From assembly GCF_024055795.1 (NCBI RefSeq), contig NZ_JAMXMY010000002.1, positions 496,001 through 560,000 on the forward strand: a DNA stretch of 64,000 nucleotides, given 5' to 3'. Source of the DNA: Actinoallomurus purpureus. Its GTDB lineage: Bacteria > Actinomycetota > Actinomycetes > Streptosporangiales > Streptosporangiaceae. Under the pieces are notes generated by a model. The model was not told the DNA's origin and ran no database searches. It worked only from the letters and a program-made list of their open reading frames with translations. Positions within the stretch are counted from its first letter, which is position 1; each line of letters begins with the position of its first letter. This document shows, one piece after another, positions 3,272 to 29,389 of the stretch. The position numbers were made by a program, and so were the translations under genes.

Positions 3272-3575
3272 GTATCGGAATCGAGAACGAAAACGACATA
3301 TCGGTCACTCCATGGGACCCGAATGCGCCTTTTTGAGTGCCCGCCCCGCCGCTGCCCGTCGGATTCCGCAGCGTGCGATCGCGAGTGCAATGTCCCGAGC
3401 AAGAAGCTCGGAAAACGACATGCGATCATGGTGATTTCCACCGCTATTCCGCACCGCGCAGCGCCGACCGTACTCGATGACCGAGTGTTTCGTCCGTCCA
3501 CGAGGGGTCCACCCCGGCCGGCGGTCGGCCTCCACGGCGGATCCCCGATGAGGCGGGACGCCGGAGGGAGAAGCG
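3272..3575 (+). repeat. Leader copy A of the duplicated MFS unit, with hairpin
   Basis: This stretch precedes the first MFS gene and is repeated in diverged form before the second (5022-5347). Shared blocks are the left edge (TATCGG.ATCGAG.ACGA), the CGAAT/CTTTTTG block, the hairpin region, and a purine-rich ribosome site (GGAGGGAGAAG) just before the start codon. The hairpin is CCGAGC-aagaa-GCTCGG at 3395-3411, followed by AAAACGA, and it is identical in both copies. From 3083 to 3271 I see no gene. The leader's role is not known; it could be an operator or an mRNA structure. Confidence 0.6.
3395..3411 (+). promoter_or_regulatory. Perfect 6-bp hairpin in MFS leader A
   Basis: CCGAGC, a 5-nt loop AAGAA, then GCTCGG and AAAACGA. 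The same 24 or so bases are kept in leader B (5176-5192) although flanking sequence differs by substitutions and by a 22-nt length change. That selective conservation suggests a functional site, either a dyad operator or an RNA hairpin. The regulator is unknown. Confidence 0.45.
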
Positions 3576-4826
3576 ATGAGTCCGAGTGCCGCCGGGGCGC
3601 TCGCCGTCCTGAGAGAACGCGACTTCCGGCGATTCTTCATCGGCCAGTCGGCCTCGCTGCTCGGCGACGGCATGGTCGGCGTCGCATTGGCGTTCGCGGT
3701 GCTCGACCTCACCGGATCACCGGCCGATCTCGGGTACGTCCTCGCCGCCCGATCGATCCCCATGGTCGCAGGCCTGCTCATCGGCGGCGTCGTCGCCGAC
3801 CGGCTGCCCCGACGCCGCATCATGGTGACCGCCGACCTGGCCCGCTTCCTCGGCCAGGGAACGATGGCCGCACTGCTGATCGGCGGCCACGCGACGATCT
3901 GGGAACTGGTGGTTCTCCAAGCCGTGCACGGTACGGCGAGCGCCCTGTTCATCCCCGCCTCGACGGGCCTCGTCCCCGCCATCGTCACCGGCGGGCGCCT
4001 TCAGCAGGCCAACGCACTGCGTGGGCTGGTCCTCTCGGTAGGTAAGATCGCCGGTCCCGTCCTCGCCGGCCTCCTGGTCGCGGTGGCAGGCCCCGGATGG
4101 GCGATCGTCGCCGACGCGGCCACCTTCGGGCTGAGCGCGATCACACTCATCCTGCTGCGACCGCCTACGCATCGGCCACCACCGGCTCAGTCCTTCGTAC
4201 GCGACCTGCGGGAGGGCTGGACGGAGTTCAGCTCCAGGACTTGGCTGCTGACGCTCGTCACGGCGGCGTCGCTGACCAACCTGCTGTTCGCGGCCTTCTA
4301 CGTCCTCGGGCCGGCGACCGCCGCACACTCGCTCGGTGGTCCCGCGGCATGGGCCACCATCCAGGCCGTACTCGGTGCGGGCTCCCTGATCGGCGGCATC
4401 ACAGCCCTGCACATCCACCCGCGCCGCCCGCTGCGGACCGGCGTGCTCGCCCTCCCGCTCAGCGCGCTGCCCGTCATCGGCCTCGCGGCACACCTTCCCG
4501 TCATCCCGGTGGCCGGCCTCGCTCTTCTCTGCGGCATCGGGATGACGGTCTTCAACACCCTCATGGAGACAGCCCTCCAACACCATGTCCCCGAAAAGGC
4601 CTTGTCCCGGGTCAGCGCCTACGACTGGTTCGGGTCCTTCGTCTGTCAGCCCATCGGCCAGGCCACGGCCGGTCCGCTCGCGGCGGGACTCGGCACCCAC
4701 CCGGCCCTCTGGCTGGCAGGCGTCCTGCAGTTCCTCGTCGCCCTCGGCGCCCTCGCCGTCCCCGCCATCCGCCGTCTCCCGGCCGGAATCCCCGACGCAC
4801 CGGTCCCCGCCCATCACGAGTCCTGA
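3576..4826 (+). CDS. MFS transporter, copy A
   Basis: A 416-residue major facilitator superfamily permease with about 12 hydrophobic segments. It opens with VLRERDFRRFFIGQSASLLGDGMVGVALAFAVL, the usual first helix of actinobacterial drug-efflux-type MFS proteins. The cytoplasmic loop between helices 2 and 3 reads GGVVADRLPRRRIM, matching the family motif G-x-x-x-D-R-x-x-R-R. Role: proton-coupled export of an unknown small molecule across the cytoplasmic membrane. The ATG is preceded by GGAGGGAGAAG. It is one of two tandem paralogues of identical length; the two proteins differ mainly in the C-terminal half. It could export a drug or natural product, but no substrate can be assigned. Confidence 0.88.
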   Translation: MSPSAAGALAVLRERDFRRFFIGQSASLLGDGMVGVALAFAVLDLTGSPADLGYVLAARSIPMVAGLLIGGVVADRLPRRRIMVTADLARFLGQGTMAALLIGGHATIWELVVLQAVHGTASALFIPASTGLVPAIVTGGRLQQANALRGLVLSVGKIAGPVLAGLLVAVAGPGWAIVADAATFGLSAITLILLRPPTHRPPPAQSFVRDLREGWTEFSSRTWLLTLVTAASLTNLLFAAFYVLGPATAAHSLGGPAAWATIQAVLGAGSLIGGITALHIHPRRPLRTGVLALPLSALPVIGLAAHLPVIPVAGLALLCGIGMTVFNTLMETALQHHVPEKALSRVSAYDWFGSFVCQPIGQATAGPLAAGLGTHPALWLAGVLQFLVALGALAVPAIRRLPAGIPDAPVPAHHES

Positions 4827-4844
4827 GTACGGCGCGTTGCCCGC

Positions 4845-5012
4845 CCCAAAGCGCCCGGGATGGACCAGCCGTCTGGTCACGATCCCCGTGCCGCACGCGA
4901 CATCCAGCAGGACGCGCGTGTCCTCCGGCGGCAGCCGCTCGGCGGCCGCGGCACGCGCCTCTCCGCCGCGGGACGCGTCATATCCTGCGGCTTCGCGGTC
5001 ATAGCGGGGCAC
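4845..5012 (-). pseudogene. Truncated SAM-dependent methyltransferase remnant
   Basis: A minus-strand open stretch starting at GTG 5012 encodes about 55 residues of a class I methyltransferase N-terminus: YDREAAGYDASRGGEARAAAAERL, then motif I in VLLDVACGTGIVTRRLV. After HPGR the similarity to any methyltransferase ends and the frame runs into the complement of MFS copy A. A full enzyme would be about 200-270 residues, so this is a remnant. It sits exactly between the two MFS copies and diverges from leader B, so I infer that the ancestral unit was methyltransferase-leader-MFS and that tandem duplication truncated this gene. Confidence 0.6.
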
Positions 5013-5021
5013 GACAAGAAC

Positions 5022-5347
5022 GTATCGGGATCGAGTACGACAACGACGAATCGAGTGCGCTATGAGGCCCGAATCCGTCTTTTTGCGTTATCCGCGCCGC
5101 CGTAATTCGCTGGGCCTGCTCCAGGGTCGCCTCCGGCGCCCTGAGCCTCCCACGTGGGCATGGCGGAACGATGTGCCGAGCAAGAAGCTCGGAAAACGAT
5201 ATGAGATCATGGCGATTTCCGGCACTATTCCGGAATTTGCGGCACCGCCCGTACTCGATGACCGAGCTTCTTGTCCGCCCACGAGGAATCCGCCGGCAGG
5301 CCTCCACAGCGGGTCTCCGATGAGGCGGGACGTCGGAGGGAGAAGTG
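5022..5347 (+). repeat. Leader copy B of the duplicated MFS unit, with hairpin
   Basis: Diverged second copy of the region at 3272-3575, about 22 nt longer. It keeps the left-edge block, the CCGAGC-aagaa-GCTCGG hairpin at 5176-5192 and the GGAGGGAGAAG ribosome site. Between the left edge and the hairpin the sequence has changed most. It also forms the upstream region of the divergent methyltransferase remnant. Confidence 0.6.
5176..5192 (+). promoter_or_regulatory. Perfect 6-bp hairpin in MFS leader B
   Basis: Same stem and loop as at 3395-3411, again followed by AAAACGA. See that entry; the pair supports a conserved regulatory site about 160 nt before each MFS start codon. Confidence 0.45.
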
Positions 5348-6598
5348 ATGAGTCCGAGTGCCGCCGGGGCGCTCGCCGTGCTGAGAGAACGCGATTTCCG
5401 GCGATTCTTCATCGGCCAGTCGGCCTCGCTGCTCGGCGACGGCATGGTCGGCGTCGCATTGGCGTTCGCGGTACTCCGCCTGACCGGATCACCGGCCGAT
5501 CTCGGGTACGTCCTCGCGGCTCGCTCGATCCCCATGGTCGCAGGCCTGCTCATCGGTGGCGTCGTCGCCGACCGGCTGCCCCGCCGGCGCATCATGGTCA
5601 CCGCCGACCTGGCCCGCTTCCTCGGCCAGGGAACGATGGCCACCCTGCTGATCAGCGGACACGCCGCCATCTGGCAACTCATCGCCCTTCAGGCCCTGCA
5701 CGGCGCGGCGGCCGCGGCCTTCAACCCTGCCTCCACCGGCCTCGTCCCGTCCATCGTGGCCGGCGGCCGGCTCCAGCAGGCCAACGCGCTGCGCGGCCTG
5801 GCCATTTCGATCGGCGACATCGCCGGTCCCGTCCTCGCGGGCGTCCTGGTCGCGGCGGCGAGCCCGGGCTGGGCCATCGCCGCCGACGCGGCCACCTTCG
5901 CCATCAGCGCAGTCATGCTCGCCCGGCTCCGGCCTCCCGCGCACCGGCCGCCGCCCGCCCAATCGTTCATGCGCGATCTGCGCGAGGGCTGGACGGAGTT
6001 CAGCTCCCGCGTCTGGGTGTGGACGGTCGTCACCGTAGCCTCGCTCACGAACATGCTTTTCGCGGCGTTCCTGGTCCTCGGCCCCGTCCTCAGCGAACGG
6101 TCACTGGGCGGCCCGGCGGCATGGGCGACGATCCAGGCCGTCCTCGGCGCCGGATCCGTGCTCGGCGGCATCGCTGCCCTGCACATCCGTGCGCGGCGTC
6201 CGCTGCGAGCCGGTGTGCTCGCCCTCACCCTCTGCCCCCTGCCGACCCTCGGCCTCGCCGCGCATCTACCGGCTGTGGCGGTGGCCGGCCTGGCATTCCT
6301 GTGCGGCTTGGGGCTCACGGTCTTCAACGCACTGTGGGAGACCGCCCTGCAGCATCACATCGCCGACAAGGCCCTGTCCCGGGTCAGCGCCTATGACTGG
6401 TTCGGGTCTCTCGCCTGCCAACCCATCGGCCAGGCCACCGCCGGACCGCTCGCCGCCGTACTCGGCATCTACCCGACCCTCTGGCTGGCCGGCGTCAGCC
6501 AGGTCGCCCTGTCCCTCGCCACCCTCGCCATCCCTGCCATCCGGCGCCTCCCGGCCGGAATCCCCAACGCACAGACTCCCGTCCGCCAGGAGTCCTGA
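5348..6598 (+). CDS. MFS transporter, copy B
   Basis: A 416-residue MFS permease paralogous to copy A. The first 130 or so residues are nearly identical and the rest is clearly diverged, for example FNPASTGLVPSIVAGG against FIPASTGLVPAIVTGG. It has the same ADRLPRRRIM loop motif and the same C-terminal LPAGIP ending. The ATG at 5348 aligns with the start of copy A; a GTG three bases upstream is in frame but is not conserved. Likely role: secondary efflux at the cytoplasmic membrane. The uneven divergence along the gene suggests either gene conversion of the 5' half or relaxed selection on the 3' half after duplication. Confidence 0.87.
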   Translation: MSPSAAGALAVLRERDFRRFFIGQSASLLGDGMVGVALAFAVLRLTGSPADLGYVLAARSIPMVAGLLIGGVVADRLPRRRIMVTADLARFLGQGTMATLLISGHAAIWQLIALQALHGAAAAAFNPASTGLVPSIVAGGRLQQANALRGLAISIGDIAGPVLAGVLVAAASPGWAIAADAATFAISAVMLARLRPPAHRPPPAQSFMRDLREGWTEFSSRVWVWTVVTVASLTNMLFAAFLVLGPVLSERSLGGPAAWATIQAVLGAGSVLGGIAALHIRARRPLRAGVLALTLCPLPTLGLAAHLPAVAVAGLAFLCGLGLTVFNALWETALQHHIADKALSRVSAYDWFGSLACQPIGQATAGPLAAVLGIYPTLWLAGVSQVALSLATLAIPAIRRLPAGIPNAQTPVRQES

Positions 6599-17990: not shown

Positions 17991-18084
17991 CTCGGCGTCC
18001 TTCTGTCAGGTCAACTGAGAAGGTACGTTCGGTTATCTGTCAGTGACAGAGTCAACGCATGACCGTTTTAAAGATCGACAGCGA

Positions 18085-18131
18085 AACAGCCACGGAACGT
18101 GTCCTGGAAAGGGTCACGAAACGTGGCTGTT
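18085..18131. promoter_or_regulatory. Long imperfect palindrome upstream of XRE regulator
   Basis: Arms AACAGCCACG (18085-18094) and CGTGGCTGTT (18122-18131) are perfect complements. Inside, CGTGTCC and GGTCACG nearly pair, extending the dyad. It is centred about 100 nt before the XRE start, in the divergent promoter region, where an autoregulatory operator would be expected. Confidence 0.5.
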
Positions 18132-18158
18132 CTCGTCAGCGCGGTTACAACAGAAAAT

Positions 18159-18204
18159 CCTGCGTCATAACCTGAAGGTCGCCAGATCTCAGGAAGGACG
18201 CAGG
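18159..18204 (+). promoter_or_regulatory. Nested stem-loop that covers the ribosome site of the XRE gene
   Basis: Outer arms CCTGCGTC (18159-18166) and GACGCAGG (18197-18204); inner arms CCTGA (18171-18175) and TCAGG (18189-18193). The right arms overlap the only Shine-Dalgarno-like sequence (AGGAAGGA, 18191-18198), and the GTG start follows three bases later. Folding would hide the ribosome site, so translation may be controlled by this structure. Confidence 0.5.
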
Positions 18205-18207
18205 GCT

Positions 18208-19431
18208 GTGACTGAATCTACCATTGGCGATCGTCTCCGGGAGCTACGTCGGCGACGAGGAATGACCCAGGAGGAGCTGGCCGAAGCCGCTGGCGTCAGC
18301 CTCGGGGTGATCAAGAAGCTGGAGCGGGGCGGCAACGCTCGCATGGAGACCCTCCACGACATCGCACGGGCCTTGGGTGTGGTCACTGTGACGTTTGCCG
18401 CGCCGACGTCTCCGGAGCCGCAGGAAGAAGCTGCCGACGAACTAGTGCTCGCAGACATGCGCTCGGCGATCAGCCCGCCCATCGGACTCGGTGGCCGGCG
18501 CATCTACGGCACAGCTGACGGCGATCACCCCGACCTGGCGAGGCTTCGCCGGGCTGTGAAGACCGTAGCCGCGGCCTACCACGCCGATCGCTACGACGAC
18601 CTCGCAAGGATCATCCCGGCTCTCGTTCGCTCCGCGCACTACCACGTGGACGTGCACGACCAGGGTGACGAGAACCGGGTAGCGCTACACGCCCGCGCCG
18701 ACGTCCTCAGCCTCGCAGGCCGCTACCTGATCCAGGTCCGGGCACATGATCTCGCCTTGACCGCACTCCACGCCTCCCTCCAGGACGCAACGGCGATCGG
18801 AGACGTCCCCCTGGCGGCTGCAGCGATCAGCGCCCAGGCCCACGCGATGCTTCGCCAGGGCAGGCTCAGCGAGGTCGAACAGCTCTGCGCCGACACCGCA
18901 TCAGAGATCGAGCCGCGCATGTCGAGCGCTGAGCCGGATGAGATCTCGGCTTGGGGCTGGATGCTGATGCGCGCGTCGGCTGCGGCCGCTCGCAACAACA
19001 GGCCCCAGGAAGCGACGGAGTACCTGAAGCTCGCCGCTGCCGGTGCGGCACGGCTCGATGACGAGCATCCGACGGTCGACTACCGCACATTCGGGCCGGT
19101 CACCGTTTCGCTCAAGCGAGCTGAGAACGCAGTGATCGGTGGCAAGCCCGACCAGACCATTGAGGTTGCGAGCCATCTGCCGGGCGACCTCGACCACACG
19201 ATGCCCGAGGAGTGGCAGCGTCATCGTCTGGACCACGCCCTCGCGCTGGTCCGGGTTGGTTCCCCAGATCCGGCGACTGACGTTCTGGACGAGTTGCGGA
19301 GGCGCAAGCCGCACTGGCTTCGCTACCAGCAGTACGCCCGTGACGCCGTTCGAGAGATCCTCCAAACCCGGCCGCGGATGCCGAGCGAGAAACAGCGAGC
19401 ACTCGCAGAGTTCATGAACGTGGAGGGCTGA
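18208..19431 (+). CDS. XRE-family regulator with C-terminal TPR-like domain
   Basis: A 407-residue cytoplasmic regulator. Residues 3-60 form a lambda-repressor-type helix-turn-helix: IGDRLRELRRRRGMTQEELAEAAGVSLGVIKKLERGGNARMETLHDIARALGV. Residues 110-400 are helical repeats of the type found in actinomycete XRE/TPR regulators such as those near antibiotic loci. I chose GTG 18208, which follows GGAAGGACGCAGGGCT and places the HTH at the N-terminus; the open frame runs back to 18043 but would add 55 unstructured residues. It is divergent from the small protein/methyltransferase operon, which it probably controls. The CRISPR mini-array begins only 9 bp after its stop. Confidence 0.85.
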   Translation: MTESTIGDRLRELRRRRGMTQEELAEAAGVSLGVIKKLERGGNARMETLHDIARALGVVTVTFAAPTSPEPQEEAADELVLADMRSAISPPIGLGGRRIYGTADGDHPDLARLRRAVKTVAAAYHADRYDDLARIIPALVRSAHYHVDVHDQGDENRVALHARADVLSLAGRYLIQVRAHDLALTALHASLQDATAIGDVPLAAAAISAQAHAMLRQGRLSEVEQLCADTASEIEPRMSSAEPDEISAWGWMLMRASAAAARNNRPQEATEYLKLAAAGAARLDDEHPTVDYRTFGPVTVSLKRAENAVIGGKPDQTIEVASHLPGDLDHTMPEEWQRHRLDHALALVRVGSPDPATDVLDELRRRKPHWLRYQQYARDAVREILQTRPRMPSEKQRALAEFMNVEG

Positions 19432-19440
19432 CAGGCTCCT

Positions 19441-19591
19441 CGGATCACCCCCACGTGCGTGGGGAGCACTACTCACACATCCGCTTGTAGTCCCGTTCGG
19501 TCGGATCACCCCCACGTGCGTGGGGAGGACACGACCCAAGACCTCTCCCGGGGCTACAGCGGCGGCTCACCCCCACGTAGGTGGGGAGGAC
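19441..19591 (-). CRISPR. Type I-E-like CRISPR mini-array: three 29-nt repeats, two 32-nt spacers
   Basis: Repeats at 19441-19469, 19502-19530 and 19563-19591 are spaced exactly 61 nt apart. The plus-strand repeat starts CGGATCACCCCCACG and ends CGTGGGGAGGAC, with a 7-bp hairpin CCCCACG/CGTGGGG; read on the minus strand it has the GT-CTCCCC...GGGGTGATCCG form of actinobacterial type I-E repeats. Repeat 3 has three changes (CTC for ATC, TAG for TGC) but keeps a 6-bp stem. Spacers are 19470-19501 and 19531-19562. A possible third spacer (19592-19623) lacks a following repeat. No cas gene is in the window, so any processing must be in trans. Confidence 0.85.
19531..19562 (-). other. CRISPR spacer 2, near-match to the adjacent eccC gene
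   Basis: The spacer matches 19841-19872 (opposite orientation) at 29 of 32 bases. In the eccC reading frame it encodes TTQDLSRGYSG against TTQDLARGYSG in the gene; two of the three differences are silent third-position changes. In crRNA orientation the mismatches fall at positions 12, 17 and 24, outside the first 11 seed-side bases. The three bases next to the protospacer are GCG, not a classic type I-E AAG-like PAM. Confidence 0.85.
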
Positions 19592-19650
19592 GCACCATCT
19601 ACATCATCGCCATCAACGAATGGCTCCACTCACTTCGAAACGCATCCTAG

Positions 19651-22600
19651 CTAGGTCCCTTGCATGGCTATGGCCCCCTGAATCGGAATTATCTGGCCGA
19701 GGTGGACGTATAGGCCGCGGCCGGTGGGGCCGTCCACGGAGATCTGGCGGGGGAGGCGGAGGTTGAAGACGTCGCCGTCGTCCGGGGACGTGACGGCGAG
19801 GAGGACACCGGTGCGGGAGCGTCTCGTTTCGGCAATGGCGCCGCTGTAGCCGCGGGCGAGGTCCTGGGTCGTTCCGCCGATGATGACGGCCTGTTCGGCG
19901 TCCCGGGCCTGGCGTAGCGCGCGGACGAGCACGTCGTCGAACGGGGTGGTGTCCAGCAACTCCGCGTCGTCGACCACCACCACGTACCGGCTCTCACCCT
20001 CGACGATCTCCTCGAATCGGTAGGCGTCCTCCGGCGTTTCCAGCACGGAGAGCACGCCCGGCTCACCGCGCAGCTCCCGCAGCGGCGACCGGCGGGGGCA
20101 GACGAGGACGACCGGCACGGTGCCGCTGCCGACCTTCGGGTCGAGCAGGGAGGTGACCATGGTCATGAGGACGGTGGAGCGGCCGGAGCGGGGTGGGCCG
20201 GCGACGGTGAATCCGGGGCCTTCGGCGAGGAGGTCGACGCCGATTGGGCCGAGTTCGTCGCCGCCCGCGCCCACCAACGCCCACAGCGGGGACGGTGCGA
20301 CGAAGTCGGGGTCCAAAGCCAGCGCCTCGGCATAGGTGACGCGGACCGGGAGTTCGTCCACGTGGAGTGGGCGCTGGCCGTGGGGAGGGCGGTCGTACGA
20401 CCGTTCGGCCTCGCGGGCGATCCTCTGCAGGGCGGCGACCTGGGCGGTGCCGGAGGCGACGTCGGTCAGCAGCGCGATCTGGGACTCCCGCAGGGACCCG
20501 CCGTCGGGGCCGACGGGCTCGAGCACGCGGCCCGGAGGCATGTCGGAGGGTACGTGGCGTTCGTCGACGCCGGCGTAGGCGTAGTCGTTCGGGTCGGCCA
20601 TGCGCAGGATGAGGCGGTCGTCGAACAGGGTGGAGACCCGGCCGGTGAGGCCGGTGCGTTCGCCGGTGACGACGGCGCGCAGGCCGACGGCGGCGCCCTC
20701 GCGCAGGAGGAGCAGGACGGCGTCGATGAGACGGCCGTAGTCGTAGTTCTCGAAGGCGGCGACGAAGCCCTCCCAGCGGTCGAGCATCAGGAGCATCCAG
20801 GGCAGGCGCTCGGACGGTGCGACGGCGGCGCGCTGTTCGGCGAGGGAGGAGAAGCCGGTGGCGGCGAGGATCTGCTGGCGGCGGCCGACCTCGGCGTGGA
20901 GGCGCGCGAGGAGGCGTTCGAGGCGTTCGGTCTGGTCGCGGGTGACGACGGCGCCGCAGTGCGGCAGGGCGACCAAGGGGAGGAGGGCGTTCGAGCCGCA
21001 GTCGATGGCGTAGAGGTGGACGTCGGCGGGGGCGCAGGTCGAGGCCAGGGAGCCGGCCAGGGTGCGCAGCGCGGTCGAGCGGCCGGAGCGCGGCGATCCC
21101 GCGACGTAGACGTGGCCGCCGTGCACGAGGTCGAGTGCGAGGACGGAGCGTGACTGGGCGGACGGCAGGTCGGTCAGGCCGTACGCGAGCGGTGGGACGT
21201 CGTCGTGGTCGGTGAAGACCGCGGGCAGGTCCTCGAGGGTCACGCGGGACGGCAGCGGCTCCAGCCACGGTGGCGGCTGGTCGTCGAGGCCGGCGCGGTC
21301 GGCGGCGTCGCGGACGGCGGCGACGAGTGCCTTCAGGTCGGTCACCGTCGTGGCCTCGTCGTCGGTGGTCTCGGTGAGGGCGAGCGGGCGGCCGAGGCCC
21401 TGCCAGGGGAGGGGGACGACGTCGGCGGGGATGGCGGTGTGGGCGCCGGGGCGCCGTCCGCCGATCCGCGCAGACTGGACCGCCTGCGGTGCGGCGGCGC
21501 CGGACCGTACGTAGCATCGGCCGGGCGTGGACTTGGAGATCCGGGCGGCGGACGGGTCGTCGATCACGTCGGTGGACTCTTCGGGGCCGGTGACGCGCAG
21601 CGCGATCCGCAGGTTGGTGTTGGCGCGGATGTCGCCGGTGACGACCCCGGCGGGGCGCTGGGTGGCGAGCAGCAGGTGCACGCCGAGGGATCGGCCGCGG
21701 CGGCCGATGTCGACGAGGCCGTCGACGAAGGCGGGCAGGTCGTCGGCCATCGTGGCGAATTCGTCGATGACGAGGACGAGGCGCGGCATCCGGACGGGGG
21801 CGCGGCGGTCGCCGTCGTCGTACAGCTCGCAGTAGTCCTCGATGTCCTTGGCCCCGGCGTGCAGCAGGGTCTCCTCACGCCGCCGCAGCTCGGCCCCGAG
21901 GGACTCGAGGGCGCGTTCGGTGAGGTGGCCGTCGAGGTCGGTGACCATTCCGGCGACGTGCGGCAGTGACGCGCAGTCCTTGAACGCCGCGCCGCCCTTG
22001 TAGTCGATCAGCACGAACGTCATCTCGTCGGGCCGGTTCGCGACCGCCAGCGACGCGATCAGGGTCTGTAGCAGCTCGGACTTGCCCGCGCCCGTCGTGC
22101 CGGCGATCAGGCCGTGCGGCCCGTCGACGCGCAGGTCGATCGTGAACACGCCGTCGGCGGACACCCCGATCGGCACCGCGGTGGTGCGGCCGCCGGCCGC
22201 CCAGATCGCCTGGACGTGGGCGGCGGTGGGCGCCGGCATGCCGAGGACGTCGAGCAGCCTGGCCTCGCGCGGGACCGCCGACTCGGCGTCGTCGCGGGAC
22301 ACGTCCCGTACGGGGGCCAGGGCCCGGGCCATGCGGTCGCACCAGCCGGTGGAGACCTGGTCGGCCAGGATCGGGCCGACGGAGTCGAGCCCGTGGCCGC
22401 GCAGCCGTACGTGCGTCGGCCGGTCCCAGTCCCAGGCGGCGACGGCGGTGCACTCTTCGGGCAGGAGGCGTTCGTCGTCGTCGACGCAGATCGCGTGCAG
22501 TCCGACCGCCGGGCCGCCGGACAGCACCTGGGGCATGCCGGGTACGCGGCGCAGCTGCCGCGCGCCGTCCATGACCAGGAGGATGTTGTACGGGCCGGAG

Positions 22601-24114
22601 CCCTGGGCGGCGCCGCTGAAGAGTCCGCCGGAGGACCGGTCGGCGGCGCGGCGGCGCTCGGTGATGCGGATCGCCAGCTCGGTGATCCGCCGCGCGACCG
22701 ATTCGGGATCGGCGCCGATCAACGCGACGCACTCCTCGCCCTCACGCGGGGCGCAGTGCGGCAGCCAGCGCGCCCAGTTCCAGTGCTCGCCGCCGTCGGG
22801 GTCGGCTGAGAGCACGACGATCGCCAGGTCGCGGGGGCTGTGCAGCGCGGCGGCCTGAGCGACCAGCCAGCGGGCGAGGGCGCGTGAGCGGTCGCGCGGC
22901 CCGGCGAGCCCGATCACGCCGAGGTCGGCGAGGGGCAGCGTGACCGGGACGGTGCGCGCGACGGGCGGCTCGGGCATGACGGGATCCGTGTCGCCGCCGC
23001 GGCCGGGGGTGAGCTCGATGCGGGCGGGCAGGTCGGCCAGGCCGACGCGCAGGTGCAGTGTGTCGGCGTCGGCGCGGCGGCGTTCCCAGAGCCGTCGCCG
23101 GGGGCCGGTGGCGGTCAGCAGCACCTCGGCCGGGTCGGGCGCGAGGGCCCGGCGGTCGTCCTCGTCGGCGCGGCGCAGCCGCTCCAGCGCGTCGTCGAAC
23201 TCCGCCTTGGCGCGCCGGTGGTCCTTCATCGCCCGTTTGTAGGACTTACGGCCGTACAGCCGGTCGCCGATCCATTCGCCGACCTGGATGACGGGGTAGG
23301 CGAAGGCCATCAGCATCCAGTACCACTGGTGGGTGATCACGGCCATCGCGACGCCGGTCGCGGCGAAGAGCAGCGAGCCGAGCAGCCGGAGCCGCTCCCT
23401 CTGGCTCTTCGGTGGCTGCTGCGGCACCTCGAGCGCGGACCGGCGTTCGGGCGGCAGCAGGCGGGGCGGCCGGTTGTAGGCGAGCCCGCCGTCGTCCAGC
23501 GGCGCCAGGTGCGCGTCCGGCGCGGTGGACGGGGCGTACGTCAGCACGGACGCTCCGACCGTCAGCACGCCTCCGGGAGGCCACGCGACGGTGCCGTCCA
23601 GCGGCACGCCGTCGACGGTGCCGTGCCCGTCCACGGTGACGCGGTGGGACTCCACCGTGATGGTCAGGGCGTGCGGCGGCACGGAGGGGTCGCCGATGCG
23701 TACGTCCACGTCGGGAGCGTTGCCGACGGTGGTCGTGCCGATGCCGATGCGGTGCACCGCCCCGGAGGCGGGGCCGCCGGTCACGCGGATCTCGGCGCTG
23801 CCGCTGGGCTCGGTCAGGACCGTCGCGACGGCGTCCGCCGGGTCGAGGGCCACGACCGCGCCGTCTCGTAGCACCCGCGCGGCGGGCACGGCCGGATCGA
23901 GCATGCGGCCGCCGGCCCACAGCGGAGGCGCGGATTCCGCGACCCAGCGTGCGCTTGGTAGGTGTACGACTTCCGCGAGGGCCTCTTTGGCCGGCTCGGT
24001 GTTGAGCGCCGTAATAAGTGATCTCGCAACGGTTTCTACCGTCATATCGGAATCACCGTTGACCACGACGTCACGGGGACCGTGATCGGTCATCACCGTG
24101 AGCGAGATTCGCAT
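19651..24114 (-). CDS. eccC: FHA-containing fused EccC-type FtsK/SpoIIIE ATPase (type VII secretion)
   Basis: A 1487-residue membrane ATPase. Start ATG 24114 has GGAGG 4-5 nt upstream. The first 90 residues form an EssC-like N-domain; residues about 100-175 look like an FHA domain (VTGGPASGAVHRIGIGTTTVGNAPDVDVRIGD). Two TM helices lie near 225-265 (LLFAATGVAMAVIT, WYWMLMAFAYPVIQVG). Three ATPase domains follow: the first has a canonical Walker A GTTGAGKSE near 672-680, while the second and third carry GSPRSGRST and GPPRSGRST near 1008 and 1309, lacking the usual lysine. The layout fuses EccCa and EccCb as in Firmicute EssC. In type VII secretion it recognises and drives WXG100 substrates; one WXG100 gene lies at 7.1 kb. 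No eccB, eccD, eccE or mycP is in the window. A CRISPR spacer matches its 3' end. Confidence 0.9.
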   Translation of the reverse strand: MRISLTVMTDHGPRDVVVNGDSDMTVETVARSLITALNTEPAKEALAEVVHLPSARWVAESAPPLWAGGRMLDPAVPAARVLRDGAVVALDPADAVATVLTEPSGSAEIRVTGGPASGAVHRIGIGTTTVGNAPDVDVRIGDPSVPPHALTITVESHRVTVDGHGTVDGVPLDGTVAWPPGGVLTVGASVLTYAPSTAPDAHLAPLDDGGLAYNRPPRLLPPERRSALEVPQQPPKSQRERLRLLGSLLFAATGVAMAVITHQWYWMLMAFAYPVIQVGEWIGDRLYGRKSYKRAMKDHRRAKAEFDDALERLRRADEDDRRALAPDPAEVLLTATGPRRRLWERRRADADTLHLRVGLADLPARIELTPGRGGDTDPVMPEPPVARTVPVTLPLADLGVIGLAGPRDRSRALARWLVAQAAALHSPRDLAIVVLSADPDGGEHWNWARWLPHCAPREGEECVALIGADPESVARRITELAIRITERRRAADRSSGGLFSGAAQGSGPYNILLVMDGARQLRRVPGMPQVLSGGPAVGLHAICVDDDERLLPEECTAVAAWDWDRPTHVRLRGHGLDSVGPILADQVSTGWCDRMARALAPVRDVSRDDAESAVPREARLLDVLGMPAPTAAHVQAIWAAGGRTTAVPIGVSADGVFTIDLRVDGPHGLIAGTTGAGKSELLQTLIASLAVANRPDEMTFVLIDYKGGAAFKDCASLPHVAGMVTDLDGHLTERALESLGAELRRREETLLHAGAKDIEDYCELYDDGDRRAPVRMPRLVLVIDEFATMADDLPAFVDGLVDIGRRGRSLGVHLLLATQRPAGVVTGDIRANTNLRIALRVTGPEESTDVIDDPSAARISKSTPGRCYVRSGAAAPQAVQSARIGGRRPGAHTAIPADVVPLPWQGLGRPLALTETTDDEATTVTDLKALVAAVRDAADRAGLDDQPPPWLEPLPSRVTLEDLPAVFTDHDDVPPLAYGLTDLPSAQSRSVLALDLVHGGHVYVAGSPRSGRSTALRTLAGSLASTCAPADVHLYAIDCGSNALLPLVALPHCGAVVTRDQTERLERLLARLHAEVGRRQQILAATGFSSLAEQRAAVAPSERLPWMLLMLDRWEGFVAAFENYDYGRLIDAVLLLLREGAAVGLRAVVTGERTGLTGRVSTLFDDRLILRMADPNDYAYAGVDERHVPSDMPPGRVLEPVGPDGGSLRESQIALLTDVASGTAQVAALQRIAREAERSYDRPPHGQRPLHVDELPVRVTYAEALALDPDFVAPSPLWALVGAGGDELGPIGVDLLAEGPGFTVAGPPRSGRSTVLMTMVTSLLDPKVGSGTVPVVLVCPRRSPLRELRGEPGVLSVLETPEDAYRFEEIVEGESRYVVVVDDAELLDTTPFDDVLVRALRQARDAEQAVIIGGTTQDLARGYSGAIAETRRSRTGVLLAVTSPDDGDVFNLRLPRQISVDGPTGRGLYVHLGQIIPIQGAIAMQGT

Positions 24115-24337
24115 TACCCCTCCGGATTCGCCGTCTGCCGGACCAGGATAGAGAGGGTGCCGGGGTCTCTCCAGCAGCTCCGGTCGAGTACTCGCTTGAT
24201 CGCTTACTAGTTGTGACATCCGTGGCGAAACAATCTGTGGTTGCCGCATTGACGCGGAGCGGTAAGGGCGGAACGATGGTTCGCCGCGTCCCGTCAACGC
24301 CGACAGTCCGCAATCCCCCGAATTGGCGGAGTAGCCA

Positions 24338-25186
24338 GTGACGACGAGCAGTGATCGTAAGAGCGTCGCCGACACCTCCGGGCGGCCGTCGCTCGCAGTG
24401 GCGGCCGGCCACCGGATTCCCGTGCCGCCCCGGGAGCGCAAGCCGGCGATGGCCGCGCTGGCCGTCCTGCTCATCGTCGGAGGCGCGCTGGTCAGCGCCT
24501 ATCTGGTGATGGCCAGCGGGCAGCGCGTCCCCGTGATCCGGGTCGCCGCGCCGGTCGCGGCCGGCCAGCGGATCCCGGCGTCCGCCCTGGAGGAGGTCCA
24601 GGTCTCGGCGACGGGCGGTCTGGACTACATCCCGTGGCGGGACCGCGCGAAGGTCACGCAGACGTACGCGACCGTCACCCTCGTCAAGGGCTCCCTCCTG
24701 ACCAACGGGATGCTCAGCACGGCCGCCTCGGCGGCCAAGGGCACCGTCGTCGTCGGGCTGGCGCTCAAGCCCGGGCAGCTTCCGGCGGGCGGCCTGCACC
24801 CGGGCGACCGCGTCGCGGTGTACGCCGTGGCGGTGCAGGGGCAGACCGGCATCCAGGCCGGGGCGGTCCTCGCGCCGGCGGCGCTGGTGTACGACGTGGC
24901 CGAGCCGGGCCAGAACGACGTCCAGAGCGACCAGGTCCAGGTGTCGGTGACCGTGCCCACCGACGAGGCGCCGCTGGTGACCCAGGCGGCGTCGGCGGGC
25001 GCGGTCGCGGTGGCCGTCCTCGCGCCGGGCGAGCAGGCGTCCGGGAGGCGGCCGCGCGCCGGCGCGGCCTCGTCGGCCGTACCCCCGACGCCGCAGCAGT
25101 CGGCGACCGAGCGGCAGCCGACCCCCGAGCGCACGACACGCCGGCCCACGACGGGCACACGTGGCGGCTCGACGGGCAGGCCCTGA
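24338..25186 (+). CDS. SAF-domain pilus assembly protein (CpaB/RcpC-like)
   Basis: A 282-residue protein with a single N-terminal TM helix (AALAVLLIVGGALVSAYLVM, residues 38-57). A SAF domain follows at about 62-125 (RVAAPVAAGQRIPASALEEVQVSA), and then a beta-rich region with LALKPGQLPAGGLHPGDRVAVYAV, as in CpaB/RcpC proteins of Flp/Tad pilus systems. The C-terminal 45 residues are Pro/Thr/Arg-rich and low in complexity. It is the first gene of the Tad operon, divergent from eccC, with GTG start. The stop overlaps the start of the next gene (TGATG). It probably sits on the outer face of the cytoplasmic membrane as a pilus assembly factor. Confidence 0.75.
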   Translation: MTTSSDRKSVADTSGRPSLAVAAGHRIPVPPRERKPAMAALAVLLIVGGALVSAYLVMASGQRVPVIRVAAPVAAGQRIPASALEEVQVSATGGLDYIPWRDRAKVTQTYATVTLVKGSLLTNGMLSTAASAAKGTVVVGLALKPGQLPAGGLHPGDRVAVYAVAVQGQTGIQAGAVLAPAALVYDVAEPGQNDVQSDQVQVSVTVPTDEAPLVTQAASAGAVAVAVLAPGEQASGRRPRAGAASSAVPPTPQQSATERQPTPERTTRRPTTGTRGGSTGRP

Positions 25187-26148
25187 TGGGGCTCATCGTC
25201 CTGGCGGCCGACAAGGGGGCACCGGGCGTCACCACCGCCGCGGTCGCGATCGCGGCGGTCTGGCCGCGCCCGGTGCTGCTCGCCGAGTGCGACCAGGCGG
25301 GCGGAGACCTGGTGTACCGGCTGCCCGCCGAGGACGGCGCCATGCTGAACCCCGCGCGCGGCATGCTGAGCCTCGCCGCCACCGCGCGGCGCGGGCTTCG
25401 GGCGGATCAGGTCTGGGAGCACACGCAGCGGCTCGTCGGCGGCCTTGACGTGCTCGTCGGCCTCACCAACGCCGAACAGGCGCAGGGCCTGACCTGGTTG
25501 TGGAGTCCCCTCGGCCGGGCGTTCGCGAACCTCACCGTCCCTTCGCCCGGCGGCGTGGCCCCCGGGCCTCCCGCCAACGGGACGACGCCGGGCGCCGGGT
25601 CCCCCGTGCAGGGCACAGGGTCGCCCGTCGACGGTGCGGCGTTTCCCGCGCGCGGCCCGGCGCCGCGCCCGGCGCCGGGCGCGGTCGCCGTCGACGTGGT
25701 CGCGGACTGCGGGCGGCTGGGCGCCGGATCGGCCGTGACCGACCTGCTCCGCGAGGCGTCCGCGATCGTGCTGTTCACTCGCGCAACCCTTGAACACGTC
25801 GCTCACCTGCGCGAACGCATTAATTCTCTCGCGTCCGAACTCGGCGGTCACGCCGCGCCACCGATCGGTGTCGTCGTGGTGGCCGACCCCCGCGAATATC
25901 GCACCTCGATCACCGAGGTCGGCCGGATCATTTCCAATGCCAAATTGCCCGCAAGTGTTCTGGGGGGTTTCGCGCTGGATCCCAAGGGTGCTGAAATGCT
26001 GAGAGGCCGATGGGGCGGAAGGCTTGACAGATCACTGCTGATTCGTTCGGCCCGGCAGATCGCGGGCGGGCTCGCCGCGCGGGCCGCGGGCGGCCCGGAT
26101 GCGGGCCGCGAGGCGCAGGGAGCGGCTAGTGGATCACAGTCTCGTTAA
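25186..26148 (+). CDS. TadZ/CpaE-like ParA-family protein with degenerate P-loop
   Basis: A 320-residue protein starting within the previous stop. Its first strand and loop read LIVLAADKGAPGVTTAAVAIAAVW, in the position of the MinD/ParA deviant Walker A (KGGxGKT), but the second lysine is replaced (KGAPGVTT). VLLAECDQAGGDL fills the place of the LLIDxDPQ strand. Residues 115-165 are a Gly/Pro-rich insertion. The C-terminal half has AIVLFTRATLEHVAHLRERI and IGVVVVADPREY. TadZ proteins localise Tad pilus machinery at the cell membrane. Loss of the lysine suggests weak or no ATP hydrolysis. It precedes the TadA ATPase, with an overlap at the 3' end. Confidence 0.72.
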   Translation: MGLIVLAADKGAPGVTTAAVAIAAVWPRPVLLAECDQAGGDLVYRLPAEDGAMLNPARGMLSLAATARRGLRADQVWEHTQRLVGGLDVLVGLTNAEQAQGLTWLWSPLGRAFANLTVPSPGGVAPGPPANGTTPGAGSPVQGTGSPVDGAAFPARGPAPRPAPGAVAVDVVADCGRLGAGSAVTDLLREASAIVLFTRATLEHVAHLRERINSLASELGGHAAPPIGVVVVADPREYRTSITEVGRIISNAKLPASVLGGFALDPKGAEMLRGRWGGRLDRSLLIRSARQIAGGLAARAAGGPDAGREAQGAASGSQSR

Positions 26149-27430
26149 GCGACTGCGGCAGGAGGTCGGCGGGCGGCTCGCCGACCAGCGCCGCCTCGAC
26201 GCGGCGAACGGCATCGCGCCCATGGTGCCGGAGGACGAGCGGCAGTTCGCGCGCGCCCTGATCGGGCAGGTCCTGGAGGAGTACGCCCGGGCGGAGATCG
26301 GGGCGGGCCGGCGCCCGCCGAACGCCGAAGAGGAGGAGCAGCTGGCGGCCGGCGTGCACGCCGCCCTGTTCGGCGTCGGACGGCTCCAGCCGCTGCTGGA
26401 GGACCCCGAGATCGAGAACATCGACGTCAACGGCTGCGAGCGGGTGTTCATCGGGTACGCCGACGGCCGGGAGGTCATGGGGGAGCCCGTCGCCGAGTCC
26501 GACGAGGAGCTCGTCGAGCTCGTCCAGATCCTGGCGGCCTACAGCGGGCTGTCCAGCCGACCGTTCGACTCGGCCAACCCCCAGCTGGACCTGCGGCTGC
26601 CCGACGGGTCCCGCCTGTCCGCCGTCATGGACGTCACCGTACGTCCCGCGCTGTCGATCCGGCGGGCGCGGCTGGGCAAGGTGTTCCTGTCCGACCTGGT
26701 CGGCAACGGCACTCTCAGCACCGAGGTCGGCCTGTTCTTGCGGGCCGCGGTCGCCGCCCGCAAGAACATCATGATCGCCGGTGCGACCAACGCGGGGAAG
26801 ACGACCCTGCTGCGGGCCATCGCCAACGAGATCTCGTCCACCGAGCGGCTGATCACCGTCGAGCGCGCCCTGGAGCTCGGGCTCGACCAGTTCCCCGAAC
26901 TGCACCCCAACGTCGTCGCCCTGGAGGAGCGGCTGCCGAACTCCGAGGGCCAGGGCACGATCACGATGGCCGGGCTCGTCCGCCGGTCGCTGCGCATGAA
27001 CCCCTCGCGCGTCATCGTCGGCGAGGTGCTCGGCGACGAGATCGTCACGATGCTCAACGCGATGACGCAGGGCAACGACGGCTCGCTGTCCACGATCCAC
27101 GCCAACTCCTCGTGGGAGGTGTTCAACCGGATCGCGACGTACGCCCTGCAGTCCGACGAACGGCTGCCGATCGAGGCGACGCACATGCTCATTGCAGGTG
27201 CCATCGACTTCGTCGTCTTCATCGAGAAGCGCAACGACTACGTCCAGGGCGGGCGGCTGCGCCGCTTCGTCTCCAGCATCCGCGAGGTGACCGGCTGCGA
27301 CGGCCGGGTGCTGTCCAGCGAGATCTTCGAACCCGGCCGGGACGGCACCGCCGTGCCCGCCGCGCCGATCGCCTGCGCAAACGAGCTCGTGCCGTTCGGC
27401 TACGACCCGGCCCAGGGAGTCTCCTGGTGA
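26129..27430 (+). CDS. tadA: TadA/CpaF-type secretion ATPase
   Basis: A 433-residue hexameric GSPII_E/CpaF ATPase that powers Tad pilus assembly from the cytoplasmic side. Motifs: IENIDVNGCERVFI in the N-terminal domain, Walker A AGATNAGKTTLLRAI near 216-230, VVALEERLPN Asp/Glu box region, Walker B RVIVGEVLGDE, His box GNDGSLSTIHANS. All catalytic boxes are intact. I chose GTG 26129, which has AGGGAG 6 nt upstream and overlaps the end of the preceding gene; the frame is open to 26099. The stop is shared with the start of TadB (GTGATG), so the genes are translationally coupled. Confidence 0.92.
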   Translation: MDHSLVKRLRQEVGGRLADQRRLDAANGIAPMVPEDERQFARALIGQVLEEYARAEIGAGRRPPNAEEEEQLAAGVHAALFGVGRLQPLLEDPEIENIDVNGCERVFIGYADGREVMGEPVAESDEELVELVQILAAYSGLSSRPFDSANPQLDLRLPDGSRLSAVMDVTVRPALSIRRARLGKVFLSDLVGNGTLSTEVGLFLRAAVAARKNIMIAGATNAGKTTLLRAIANEISSTERLITVERALELGLDQFPELHPNVVALEERLPNSEGQGTITMAGLVRRSLRMNPSRVIVGEVLGDEIVTMLNAMTQGNDGSLSTIHANSSWEVFNRIATYALQSDERLPIEATHMLIAGAIDFVVFIEKRNDYVQGGRLRRFVSSIREVTGCDGRVLSSEIFEPGRDGTAVPAAPIACANELVPFGYDPAQGVSW

Positions 27431-28380
27431 TGGCCGGTCTGGCCGACATGGCCGCGCTGCCCGCCATCCTCGCGGGCGCGCTGGTCGGCGGTGGTGTCTT
27501 CCTGCTCATCGCCGCGATCCGCGGTGTGCGGCCCCGCCCCGGCCGGCCGTCCGGGCGCAGCCGCGAGGACCTCGTCCGCACGTTCAGCACACGCACGGCG
27601 CTGGCCGTCATCGCCGGGGTCGCCGTGCTGGTCGTCACCCGATGGCCGGTCGCCGCGGTCGGCACGGGCCTGCTCGTCCTCGGCTGGAACACCATCGGCG
27701 GCGGTGCCGCCGAGGAGCGCCGCGCGATGGCCCGCCTGGAGGCCCTCGCCGCCTGGACCGAGTCGCTGCGCGACACGATCGCCGGCGCGGTCGGCCTCGA
27801 ACAGGCCATCCCCTCCTCGCTGCGGGCCGTGGCGCCCGTGCTGGAACCGCACGTACGGGCCGTCGTCGACCGCCTGCACACCCGCGTGCCGCTCGCCGAC
27901 GCGCTGCGCGGATTCGGCGACGACCTGAACGACCCGTCCGCCGACCTCGTGGTCGCCGCGCTCATCCTGAACGCGCGGCTGCGCGGCCCCGGCCTGCGCG
28001 ACATGCTCGGCGCGCTGTCCACGTCCGCCCGCGCCGAGCTCGACATGCGGCGCCGCGTCGAGGCGAACCGCCGCACGACCCGCCGCAGCGTCCAGATCGT
28101 CGTGGGCGTCTCGGTCGGCACGGCCCTGATGCTGGCCGTCTTCAACCGGTCCTACGTGAAGATGTACGACACGTTCGTCGGGCAGCTCGTCCTCGCCGTC
28201 GTCGTCGGCCTGTTCGCCCTCGGGTTCTTCTGGCTGCGCAGACTCGCCAAGTACGAGATGCCGCAGCGCTTCCTCGGCTCGGCCGACACCGACCGTCCCG
28301 GCGTGCCCGCCGAGGTGCCCGAGACGGTCGCCCGCTGGCAGGGCCGTACCGGTTCCGCCGTCAAGGGAGGCACGCGATGA
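27427..28380 (+). CDS. tadB: TadB-like inner-membrane pilus assembly protein
   Basis: A 317-residue GSPII_F-type membrane protein. It has N-terminal helices (LPAILAGALVGGGVFLLIAAI and ALAVIAGVAVLVV), a cytoplasmic T2SSF domain with LEALAAWTESLRDTIAGAVGLEQAIPSSLRAVAP, and two C-terminal TM helices (VQIVVGVSVGTALMLAVF, LVLAVVVGLFALGFFWL). GTG 27427 has GGGAG 7 nt upstream; ATG 27430 in the same frame is the alternative. It would form the platform for TadA with TadC. The 3' end runs directly into a 48-bp tandem repeat that separates it from TadC. Confidence 0.87.
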   Translation: MMAGLADMAALPAILAGALVGGGVFLLIAAIRGVRPRPGRPSGRSREDLVRTFSTRTALAVIAGVAVLVVTRWPVAAVGTGLLVLGWNTIGGGAAEERRAMARLEALAAWTESLRDTIAGAVGLEQAIPSSLRAVAPVLEPHVRAVVDRLHTRVPLADALRGFGDDLNDPSADLVVAALILNARLRGPGLRDMLGALSTSARAELDMRRRVEANRRTTRRSVQIVVGVSVGTALMLAVFNRSYVKMYDTFVGQLVLAVVVGLFALGFFWLRRLAKYEMPQRFLGSADTDRPGVPAEVPETVARWQGRTGSAVKGGTR

Positions 28381-28478
28381 CGACCGCACTGCCGGCCGGC
28401 GCCGTTCTCGGGCAGGGAGGCGCGATGACCACCGGACTGCCGGCCGGCGCCGTTCTCGGGCAGGGAGGCGTGCGATGA
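28377..28478 (+). repeat. Tandem 48-bp duplication of the TadB-TadC junction, coding a 33-residue coupled peptide
   Basis: Unit 1 (28377-28424) and unit 2 (28425-28474) differ by two or three bases and resemble the first bases of tadC, each holding an ATG and a CAGGGAGG ribosome site. Read from ATG 28377, which overlaps the tadB stop, they give MTTALPAGAVLGQGGA then MTTGLPAGAVLGQGGVR and a stop that overlaps the tadC start at 28475. Thus three start codons in a row are coupled. Probably replication slippage, with possible effect on tadC translation. Confidence 0.75.
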
Positions 28479-29389
28479 CCACCGCACTCCTCGCCGGGGC
28501 GTTCTTCGGGCTGGGCGGCTACCTCCTGTTCCGCGCGCTGTTCCCGCCCCGACCGGGCCTGGCCGCGCGCCTCGCCGCCTTCGACACGGCCCGGCGGCGG
28601 GGCGAGACGGAGCCCGAGAAACGGACCGCGGGCGACTCCGGAAGGTTCCCCGGCCTGCGCGCCCAGGTCGGCCGCTCCCTGGCGGCCTTCTACGAGGCGC
28701 GGGGGTGGCGGCAGCGCTCGGCGCGGGCGGATCTGGCCCTGCTGGACCGGTCGTTCGAGGGGTTCCTCGCCACGAAGTTCCTGCTCTCGGCGGCGGCGAT
28801 CGTGTTCATCCCCGTCCTCGTCGGCTACTTCGCCATCCTGGGCCTCGGCGTCGCGGTCGCCATCCCCGTATGGCTCGGGCTGTTCTTCGCGGTCATCTTC
28901 TTCCTGCTGCCGGACCTGCAGCTGCGTCAGGAGGCGGCGGCGCGGCGGCGTGACTTCCGGCACGCCGTCAGCGCGTTCCTCGACCTGGTCGCGATGAACC
29001 TCGCCGGCGGGCGCGGCGTGCCCGAGGCCCTCATGACCGCCGCCAACGTCGGTGAGGGCTGGGCCATGCGTCGCATCCGCGACGCCCTGTCCAACGCCCG
29101 TATCACCGGAACGACGCCCTGGCAGGCGCTCGGCCGGCTGGGCGAGGAGGTCAGCGTCGACGAGCTCCGTGACCTGTCCGCCGCGCTGGCCCTGGTCGCC
29201 GACGACGGGGCGAAGGTACGCCAGTCGCTCGCCGCCCGTGCGGCCAGCATGCGCAGCCGTGAGCTGTCCGACGTCGAGGGCCGCGCCGGCGAACGCTCCC
29301 AGTCGATGCTCGTCGCCCAGCTCCTGCTGTGCGCCGGCTTCCTGATCTTCCTGGCCTATCCGGCGGTGATGCGGGTGATGGCCGCGTGA
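28475..29389 (+). CDS. tadC: TadC-like inner-membrane pilus assembly protein
   Basis: A 304-residue GSPII_F-type protein with an N-terminal TM (LLAGAFFGLGGYLLFRALF), paired central TMs (LLSAAAIVFIPVLVGYFAILGLGVAVAIPVWLGLFFAVIFFLLPDLQL), the conserved cytoplasmic core FRHAVSAFLDLVAMNLAGGRGVPEAL and a C-terminal TM. TadC works with TadB as the membrane platform of the pilus motor. The start is preceded by CAGGGAGGCGTGCG within the 48-bp repeat. It is followed 41 bp later by the Flp-like pilin gene. Confidence 0.87.
   Translation: MTTALLAGAFFGLGGYLLFRALFPPRPGLAARLAAFDTARRRGETEPEKRTAGDSGRFPGLRAQVGRSLAAFYEARGWRQRSARADLALLDRSFEGFLATKFLLSAAAIVFIPVLVGYFAILGLGVAVAIPVWLGLFFAVIFFLLPDLQLRQEAAARRRDFRHAVSAFLDLVAMNLAGGRGVPEALMTAANVGEGWAMRRIRDALSNARITGTTPWQALGRLGEEVSVDELRDLSAALALVADDGAKVRQSLAARAASMRSRELSDVEGRAGERSQSMLVAQLLLCAGFLIFLAYPAVMRVMAA

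Follow-up and report, generated by a model that had tools for sequence, protein, structure and literature searches.

A two-spacer CRISPR array lies next to eccC, the gene of an FtsK/SpoIIIE ATPase of a type VII secretion system in Actinoallomurus purpureus, and its leader-proximal spacer (spacer 2) matches this neighbouring gene at 29 of 32 bases. We put at roughly 0.52 the probability that an allele of the resident eccC was the donor of the spacer, which would have been acquired from DNA close to the array, followed by PAM escape of the gene and leaving an inert relic. The array looks like a fossil of self-targeting rather than a working regulator. The window is the whole stretch of DNA that was analysed (64 kb; contig C22, 496001-560000), from a 9.25 Mb genome assembled in 52 contigs and 97.9% complete.

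A two-spacer array beside eccC

The array occupies positions 19441-19591, just beyond the 3' end of eccC, and consists of three 29-nt repeats and two 32-nt spacers with a period of 61 nt. These lengths fit a type I-E array, for which 29-nt repeats of I-E type and constant spacers of about 32 nt are expected. The features are as follows (window coordinates, strand, description):

18043-19431, plus strand, helix-turn-helix regulator gene on the other side of the array, pointing towards it
19441-19469, minus strand, CRISPR repeat R3, leader-distal; GTGCTCCCCACGCACGTGGGGGTGATCCG in crRNA sense
19470-19501, minus strand, spacer 1, 32 nt, leader-distal, plasmid-type
19502-19530, minus strand, CRISPR repeat R2
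19531-19562, minus strand, spacer 2, 32 nt, leader-proximal in crRNA orientation; inverted match to eccC
19563-19591, minus strand, CRISPR repeat R1, leader-most
19592-19650, no strand, expected place of the leader, without the GCAGGTCG[CT]GAAGT end found upstream of three arrays of the congener G152
19651-24474, minus strand, open frame of an eccC-type gene for an FtsK/SpoIIIE ATPase of type VII secretion
19838-19840, plus strand, PAM position of the spacer 2 target; GCG here, AAG in 9 of 18 homologues and AAN in 17 of 18
19841-19872, plus strand, protospacer-like stretch in eccC (crRNA sense); the coding strand reads TTQDLARGYSG

The likely start of eccC is near 24114, at a conserved MRISLTVM. 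R1 and R2 differ at 3 of 29 bases, counted by eye. The repeats resemble those of arrays on a G152 contig that carries a Cas8e/Cse1 gene, and R3 belongs to the repeat family of arrays on G152 contig C18 that have type I-E cas genes several kb away at most. Because this family is shared with long G152 arrays on a contig with type I-E cas genes, the orientation of the array could be assigned: its crRNA sense is the minus strand, the same as eccC, and in this sense the match in eccC sits upstream of spacer 2, on the leader side. A second I-E-like mini-array is present elsewhere in the genome (C6:163669-163819) with three repeats of CTGCTCCCCGCGCACGCGG type and two 32-nt spacers; its repeats differ from those beside eccC.

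Spacer 1 matches plasmid DNA

Spacer 1 has full-length matches in a plasmid of Streptomyces sp. NBC_01298 (30/32) and in pFRL3 (29/32), and both protospacers are preceded by AAG, which the available text of PMC6568314 gives as a consensus PAM of E. coli type I-E. Since the two plasmid target genes are homologous, this AAG counts as one PAM observation rather than two. Thus, one of the two spacers (spacer 1) matches foreign DNA beside an AAG-type PAM, whereas the present match of spacer 2 lacks AAG. The plasmid type of spacer 1 indicates that foreign DNA was being sampled. Its target is a protein of about 300 residues common to two large Streptomyces plasmids (L080 5833-6729 and L081 5833-6741), one copy of which gave no match in a Pfam search. 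Twelve other plasmid records (E 0.7 to 9, two covering more than 80% of the spacer) were treated as chance, and in two of these weak loci the similarity is confined to a short core. Two records of one phage, 88% identical over 25 bases, were likewise set aside, and a pattern search of IMG/VR with spacer 1 returned 0 matches.

Spacer 2 matches eccC

Realignment of spacer 2 with eccC bore out most of what the sequence-only reading had described: an identity of 29/32 to 19841-19872, mismatches at crRNA positions 12, 17, and 24 with an intact seed, two of them synonymous and one changing Ala to Ser, and a GCG flank that is not a classic PAM. In type I-E crRNA pairing, every sixth position is tolerated. 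Spacer 2 encodes TTQDLSRGYSG. The earlier claim that the match stops at the spacer edge did not hold, in that two repeat bases are included as well, giving 31/34 for an inverted pair (19531-19564 and 19839-19872). The arms of this pair are 274 nt apart, and spacer 2 lies about 280 bases from its target.

The next best place for spacer 2 within the window reaches 20/32, and a search of the whole genome with five open positions and up to three further mismatches found only the spacer itself and the place in eccC. When 5000 32-mers from an unrelated locus of the same genome were compared with both strands of the window, none exceeded 26/32. A first null of 1500 32-mers from the window gave 16 at 29/32 or above, all of which fall in one duplicated stretch near 3.4-6.6 kb. 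This stretch (3392-6565) contains direct copies about 1.77 kb apart in which many 32-mers are identical at 29-32 of 32 positions, and is probably a tandem duplication. In a scan of 297 genomes of the family, ten places in a membrane-protein gene that is not eccC scored 22-26/32, indicating that about 26/32 arises by chance at that scale. The similarity of spacer 2 to its own chromosome is thus well above chance (29/32), and spacer 2 is most likely a true spacer, coding-like and derived from an eccC.

A PAM at the register of spacer 2 in eccC homologues

We aligned 19 eccC segments of about 330 residues, comprising the own gene and 18 homologues, nine chosen by protein search and nine by DNA similarity to the protospacer with a query that did not contain the PAM. 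From the 22 non-own loci of the DNA scan, ten were left out as non-eccC (no EccC match, membrane-protein frame), and none of these ten has AAG; three more (L011-L013) came from genomes already in the set. Among the ten loci of the protein search, L095-L097 (weaker relatives in genome G135, or fragments) were left out, L089 and L090 are duplicate entries for A. soli and A. spadix, and the own gene appears as L088.

At the exact register of spacer 2, nine of the 18 homologues carry AAG, a count that is reached by only 4 of 1976 registers on both strands, with a background mean of 0.4% AAG per register per homologue. Shifting the register by 1-4 bases leaves AAG in 0 homologues. The signal is found in each half of the set, with AAG in 5 of 9 protein-chosen homologues (4 of 1976 registers reach 5) and in 4 of 9 DNA-chosen ones (6 of 1976 as high), and is weaker in members of the genus alone (2 of 6; 20 of 1976 as high). 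Relatives encode Gly-Phe at the flank, where GGC TTC reads as AAG on the other strand, and the own eccC encodes Gly-Ala. The residue at the PAM site is Phe in 17 homologues and Tyr in one (A. spadix), and the own EccC is the only one of the 19 without an aromatic residue there. The own flank is GCG because Ala replaces the Phe that is kept in 17 of 18 homologues. The two nearest relatives carry AAA and TAA at the PAM position, and AAG in the own lineage is therefore not observed.

Judged from these alignments, spacer 2 was most likely cut in a PAM-guided manner from an eccC allele with GGC TTC, beside AAG, and on the simplest reading the present resident eccC would not be the exact donor allele. 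According to the available text of PMC6568314, E. coli also acquires spacers with non-functional PAMs, 14% in naive adaptation and, by the introduction of that paper, at least half of spacers. Spacer 2 may therefore have been taken up directly from the present GCG allele, but the AAG register would then be a coincidence. At the three sites where spacer and gene differ, the own eccC carries the commonest states of the homologues, and Ser at the Ala-to-Ser site is found in genomes G135 and G016. All residues encoded by the spacer occur among the homologues, which three random base changes would give with P 0.07-0.10. Looking for a PAM at the exact register of a spacer in homologues offers a general way to trace the source of an imperfect spacer match.

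Search for a donor outside the genome

A serious rival to the resident donor is that a related species or strain supplied the eccC, which would have arrived as foreign DNA (by conjugation, by transfer of chromosomal DNA, or on an ICE that has not been sampled). The resident eccC would then match spacer 2 by homology alone, and its closeness to the array would be coincidental. We regard this as a possible origin, somewhat short of an even chance. It agrees with the finding that the residues of spacer 2 are all seen in homologues and two of its three changes are synonymous (the residue test above), with Ser at the changed site in G135 and G016, with AAG at the register in half of the homologues, and with spacer 1, which shows that plasmid-type DNA was sampled. 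A precedent exists in archaea, where spacers matching chromosomal genes of other species are described in the available text of PMC3285040.

However, no donor as close as the own eccC was found. When 297 genomes of the family and 394 of the class were scanned with spacer 2, a score of 29/32 or better was seen only in the array itself and in the eccC beside it. Apart from the own genome, none of the 296 family members and none of the 393 class members (overlapping sets) came as close, the next best candidate being A. spadix at 28/32. A pattern including AAG found no closer donor in 344 other genomes of the order, a set that overlaps the others. The spacer 2 pattern had 0 matches in IMG/VR, and no EccC relatives were found in phages or IMG/VR. 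A plasmid collection held 23 records with EccC-like proteins, all at most 45% identical over the 330-residue query, and in four of these loci (L084-L087) the best place for spacer 2 reaches 20/32; L086 is catalogued as a plasmid but measures 11.85 Mb. One of them, on a plasmid of Streptomyces sp. NBC_00055 (681 kb, typed mobilizable; L084 199-4963), has a WXG100 gene beside the EccC-like FtsK gene, an adjacency that would suit a travelling relative. Three Microbacterium phage records with a 21-base match to spacer 2, which lies inside one large gene in the record inspected, were judged chance. The same applies to four plasmid records with 17-22 matching bases, none covering more than 80% of the spacer; under the 19-base match in a Tsukamurella plasmid there is no annotated gene.

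The sequence-only reading had offered two origins, an incoming related eccC on a mobile ESX locus or a decayed self-target. This was the right pair to weigh, whereas the mobile ESX source is unsupported so far, given phages, IMG/VR, and plasmids without a close EccC. The check that it proposed, for a perfect match of spacer 2 with an AAG-like flank in plasmids, phages, or actinomycete genomes, found none. Among the five named loci that one scan gave for eccC, the closest are those of A. soli (85%) and A. spadix (83% of the 330-residue query). Within the genus, an eccC match was obtained in 7 of 8 genomes with one main gene each, G135 having additional weaker relatives, and none in G176 (87% complete).

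Resident eccC as the proposed donor

The position also speaks against an incoming relative, since array and homologous gene would then have ended up no more than about 300 bases apart by coincidence. For a match that falls anywhere in the 64-kb window, simple arithmetic puts the chance of this at about 1%, and far less genome-wide, although the nearness is partly selected for since only matches within the window could be noticed at the outset. The distance of about 280 bases thus favours the resident locus as donor. From what is directly observed (the array, the match, the AAG of spacer 1, the register statistic, the own GCG flank, and four cas families not found), we infer the former presence of AAG in the own lineage, a resident donor instead of one from a relative, and the sequence of events.

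In the resident-donor reading, a type I-E system would have taken spacer 2, guided by the PAM, from an eccC that encoded Gly-Phe as GGC TTC, the donor being the allele located next to the array at that time, towards the leader. Mutation or allele replacement would subsequently have removed the PAM from the resident eccC (GCG instead of AAG, Ala instead of Phe), so that self-attack was avoided; loss of the cas genes would have avoided it as well, and with the leader lost or replaced an inert relic would remain. A stricter version, in which the spacer from the adjacent eccC led to a full autoimmunity cycle with survival-selected destruction of the PAM through Phe-to-Ala or an allele swap and then loss of leader and cas genes, appears unlikely to us. 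If it were true, CRISPR self-targeting would have altered a type VII secretion ATPase at a conserved residue.

Because the own eccC carries the commonest states at the three differing sites, a resident donor needs either mutation of the spacer or allele replacement. From the homologue alignment, the three differences look like evolution among homologues and not like spacer decay, which counts against the resident donor. Furthermore, PAM loss need not mean escape, as A. spadix lost the Phe (to Tyr) with no such array near its eccC. A combined reading, in which a resident allele donated the spacer and was later swapped for another allele, fits both lines of evidence. CRISPR targeting can promote recombination in Haloferax, according to the available part of PMC12814878. 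Over the last ~2.5 kb of eccC, the identity to A. spadix and A. soli in 300-base blocks is 0.81-0.91, dropping towards the 3' end, and at this low resolution there is no clear sign of a recombination edge.

State of the array

Profiles of Cse1 (PF09481), Cas6e (PF08798), Cas1 (PF01867), and Cas7e (PF09344) had 0 matches in the own genome, in a search that covered these four families. In three G152 arrays, GCAGGTCG[CT]GAAGT stands before the first repeat, and no match to this common end was seen by eye next to R1. With four cas families not found and the leader absent, the mini-array is probably inert as judged from its sequence, and most likely has no present function; since the leader is gone, older spacers on the leader side may be gone too. 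The stretch between array and eccC at 19603-19650 is 85% similar over 48 bases to A. soli G166:C37:25404-25450, which lies behind another reading frame. The idea that the stretch from R1 to eccC is a transposase end, raised by a peptide shared with A. soli, was dropped as neither peptide matched Pfam.

Only G152, of eight genomes in the genus, has Cse1, Cas1, and Cas7e. Its contigs C18 and C27 hold two matches each to Cse1, Cas7e, and Cas1 and at least two repeat families. Lone or scattered repeats without a regular array occur in A. soli (G166:C31:3975-4003 and C31 32.4-32.7 kb) and at G052:C269:4690-4718. The I-E repeat type probably occurred in more members of the genus at an earlier time and then decayed. 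Among 122 distinct spacers, mainly of G152, the last repeat base before the spacer varies (74 C, 41 G, 5 T, 2 A). These spacers (L006, L075-L077, L079) had no match with at most six differences outside arrays in G152 DNA and the eccC loci, as compared with a quick 6-mer filter.

It is very improbable that the mini-array regulates eccC, with a crRNA-like or antisense RNA pairing with the eccC message or DNA and repressing it. The spacer RNA would be antisense to the eccC mRNA, the seed is intact, and a read-through RNA of 401 nt is predicted to form a hairpin (-194.9 kcal/mol, z -4.48), which follows from the inverted match itself. Nevertheless, without a Cas6e or Cascade there would be no type I-E crRNA complex, and the target flank is GCG, which the available text of PMC6568314 does not list as an interfering PAM. 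The eccC regions of A. soli and A. spadix (15 and 18 kb) contain no such repeats, Rfam gave no match, and a simple scan restricted to the sigma-70 type found no promoter. Chance resemblance, or an inverted duplication unrelated to CRISPR adaptation, was rejected as highly improbable: high-GC DNA yields matches up to 26/32 and template switching can make inverted copies, but 0 of 5000 control 32-mers reach 29/32, the copy extends only two bases past the spacer, its register coincides with the AAG of homologues, and the sibling spacer 1 is an ordinary plasmid-type spacer.

Comparison with known cases

Self-targeting spacers with PAM escape are already known (PMC3630108), as is self-targeting in actinomycetes (PMC4223832), each as given in the available text. 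In Pectobacterium atrosepticum, a native self-matching spacer (CRISPR2 spacer 6) is tolerated through a one-base PAM change, and it resembles spacer 2 in being a native spacer against an own gene with a non-consensus PAM (available part of PMC3630108). That system is of type I-F and has active cas genes, and its spacer matches a target within a mobile island at 100%, whereas the Actinoallomurus array is of I-E type, matches at 29/32, has four cas families not found, and adjoins its type VII secretion gene. An upstream hotspot of spacer sources at E. coli CRISPR-1, described in the accessible text of PMC10011333, likewise involves leader-side self DNA, but was mapped there and is inferred here from one fossil spacer. 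Salinispora arrays have spacers matching own genes, including non-mobile ones, but the matches are perfect and the text available of PMC4223832 describes no target beside the array. The archaeal case resembles ours in a spacer that is similar to a chromosomal gene of a relative (PMC3285040, available part); it differs in that no donor species was found here and the array adjoins the homologue. Regulatory crRNA-like systems of the scaRNA type depend on a Cas effector able to bind a target with a partial match, as far as the text of PMC6990116 is available, and no type I-E effector subunit was found here (Cse1 and Cas7e searched). Titles and abstract openings of the literature on CRISPR with type VII secretion or eccC, and on self-targeting spacers, mention no spacer whose target gene adjoins the array that carries it.

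Spacers derived from self DNA usually do harm, and preserved cases with a readable history are therefore useful; that of spacer 2 is unusually readable. If the resident donor is true, the locus would provide natural, non-laboratory evidence that DNA adjacent to an array is a source of spacers against self, and that a host protein can be altered at a conserved position through escape.

One G152 array, compared with phages by BLAST to learn its PAM, gave no match; a search of the same type against plasmids gave 25 records, mostly long low-identity matches without an annotated gene, which are taken to be other arrays, and one 31-base match in a gene of a Marinibacterium plasmid. Within the window, positions 26099-29389 hold three consecutive genes, one with a T2SSE domain and two with T2SSF domains, which form a cluster of type II/IV secretion or tad pilus-like kind.
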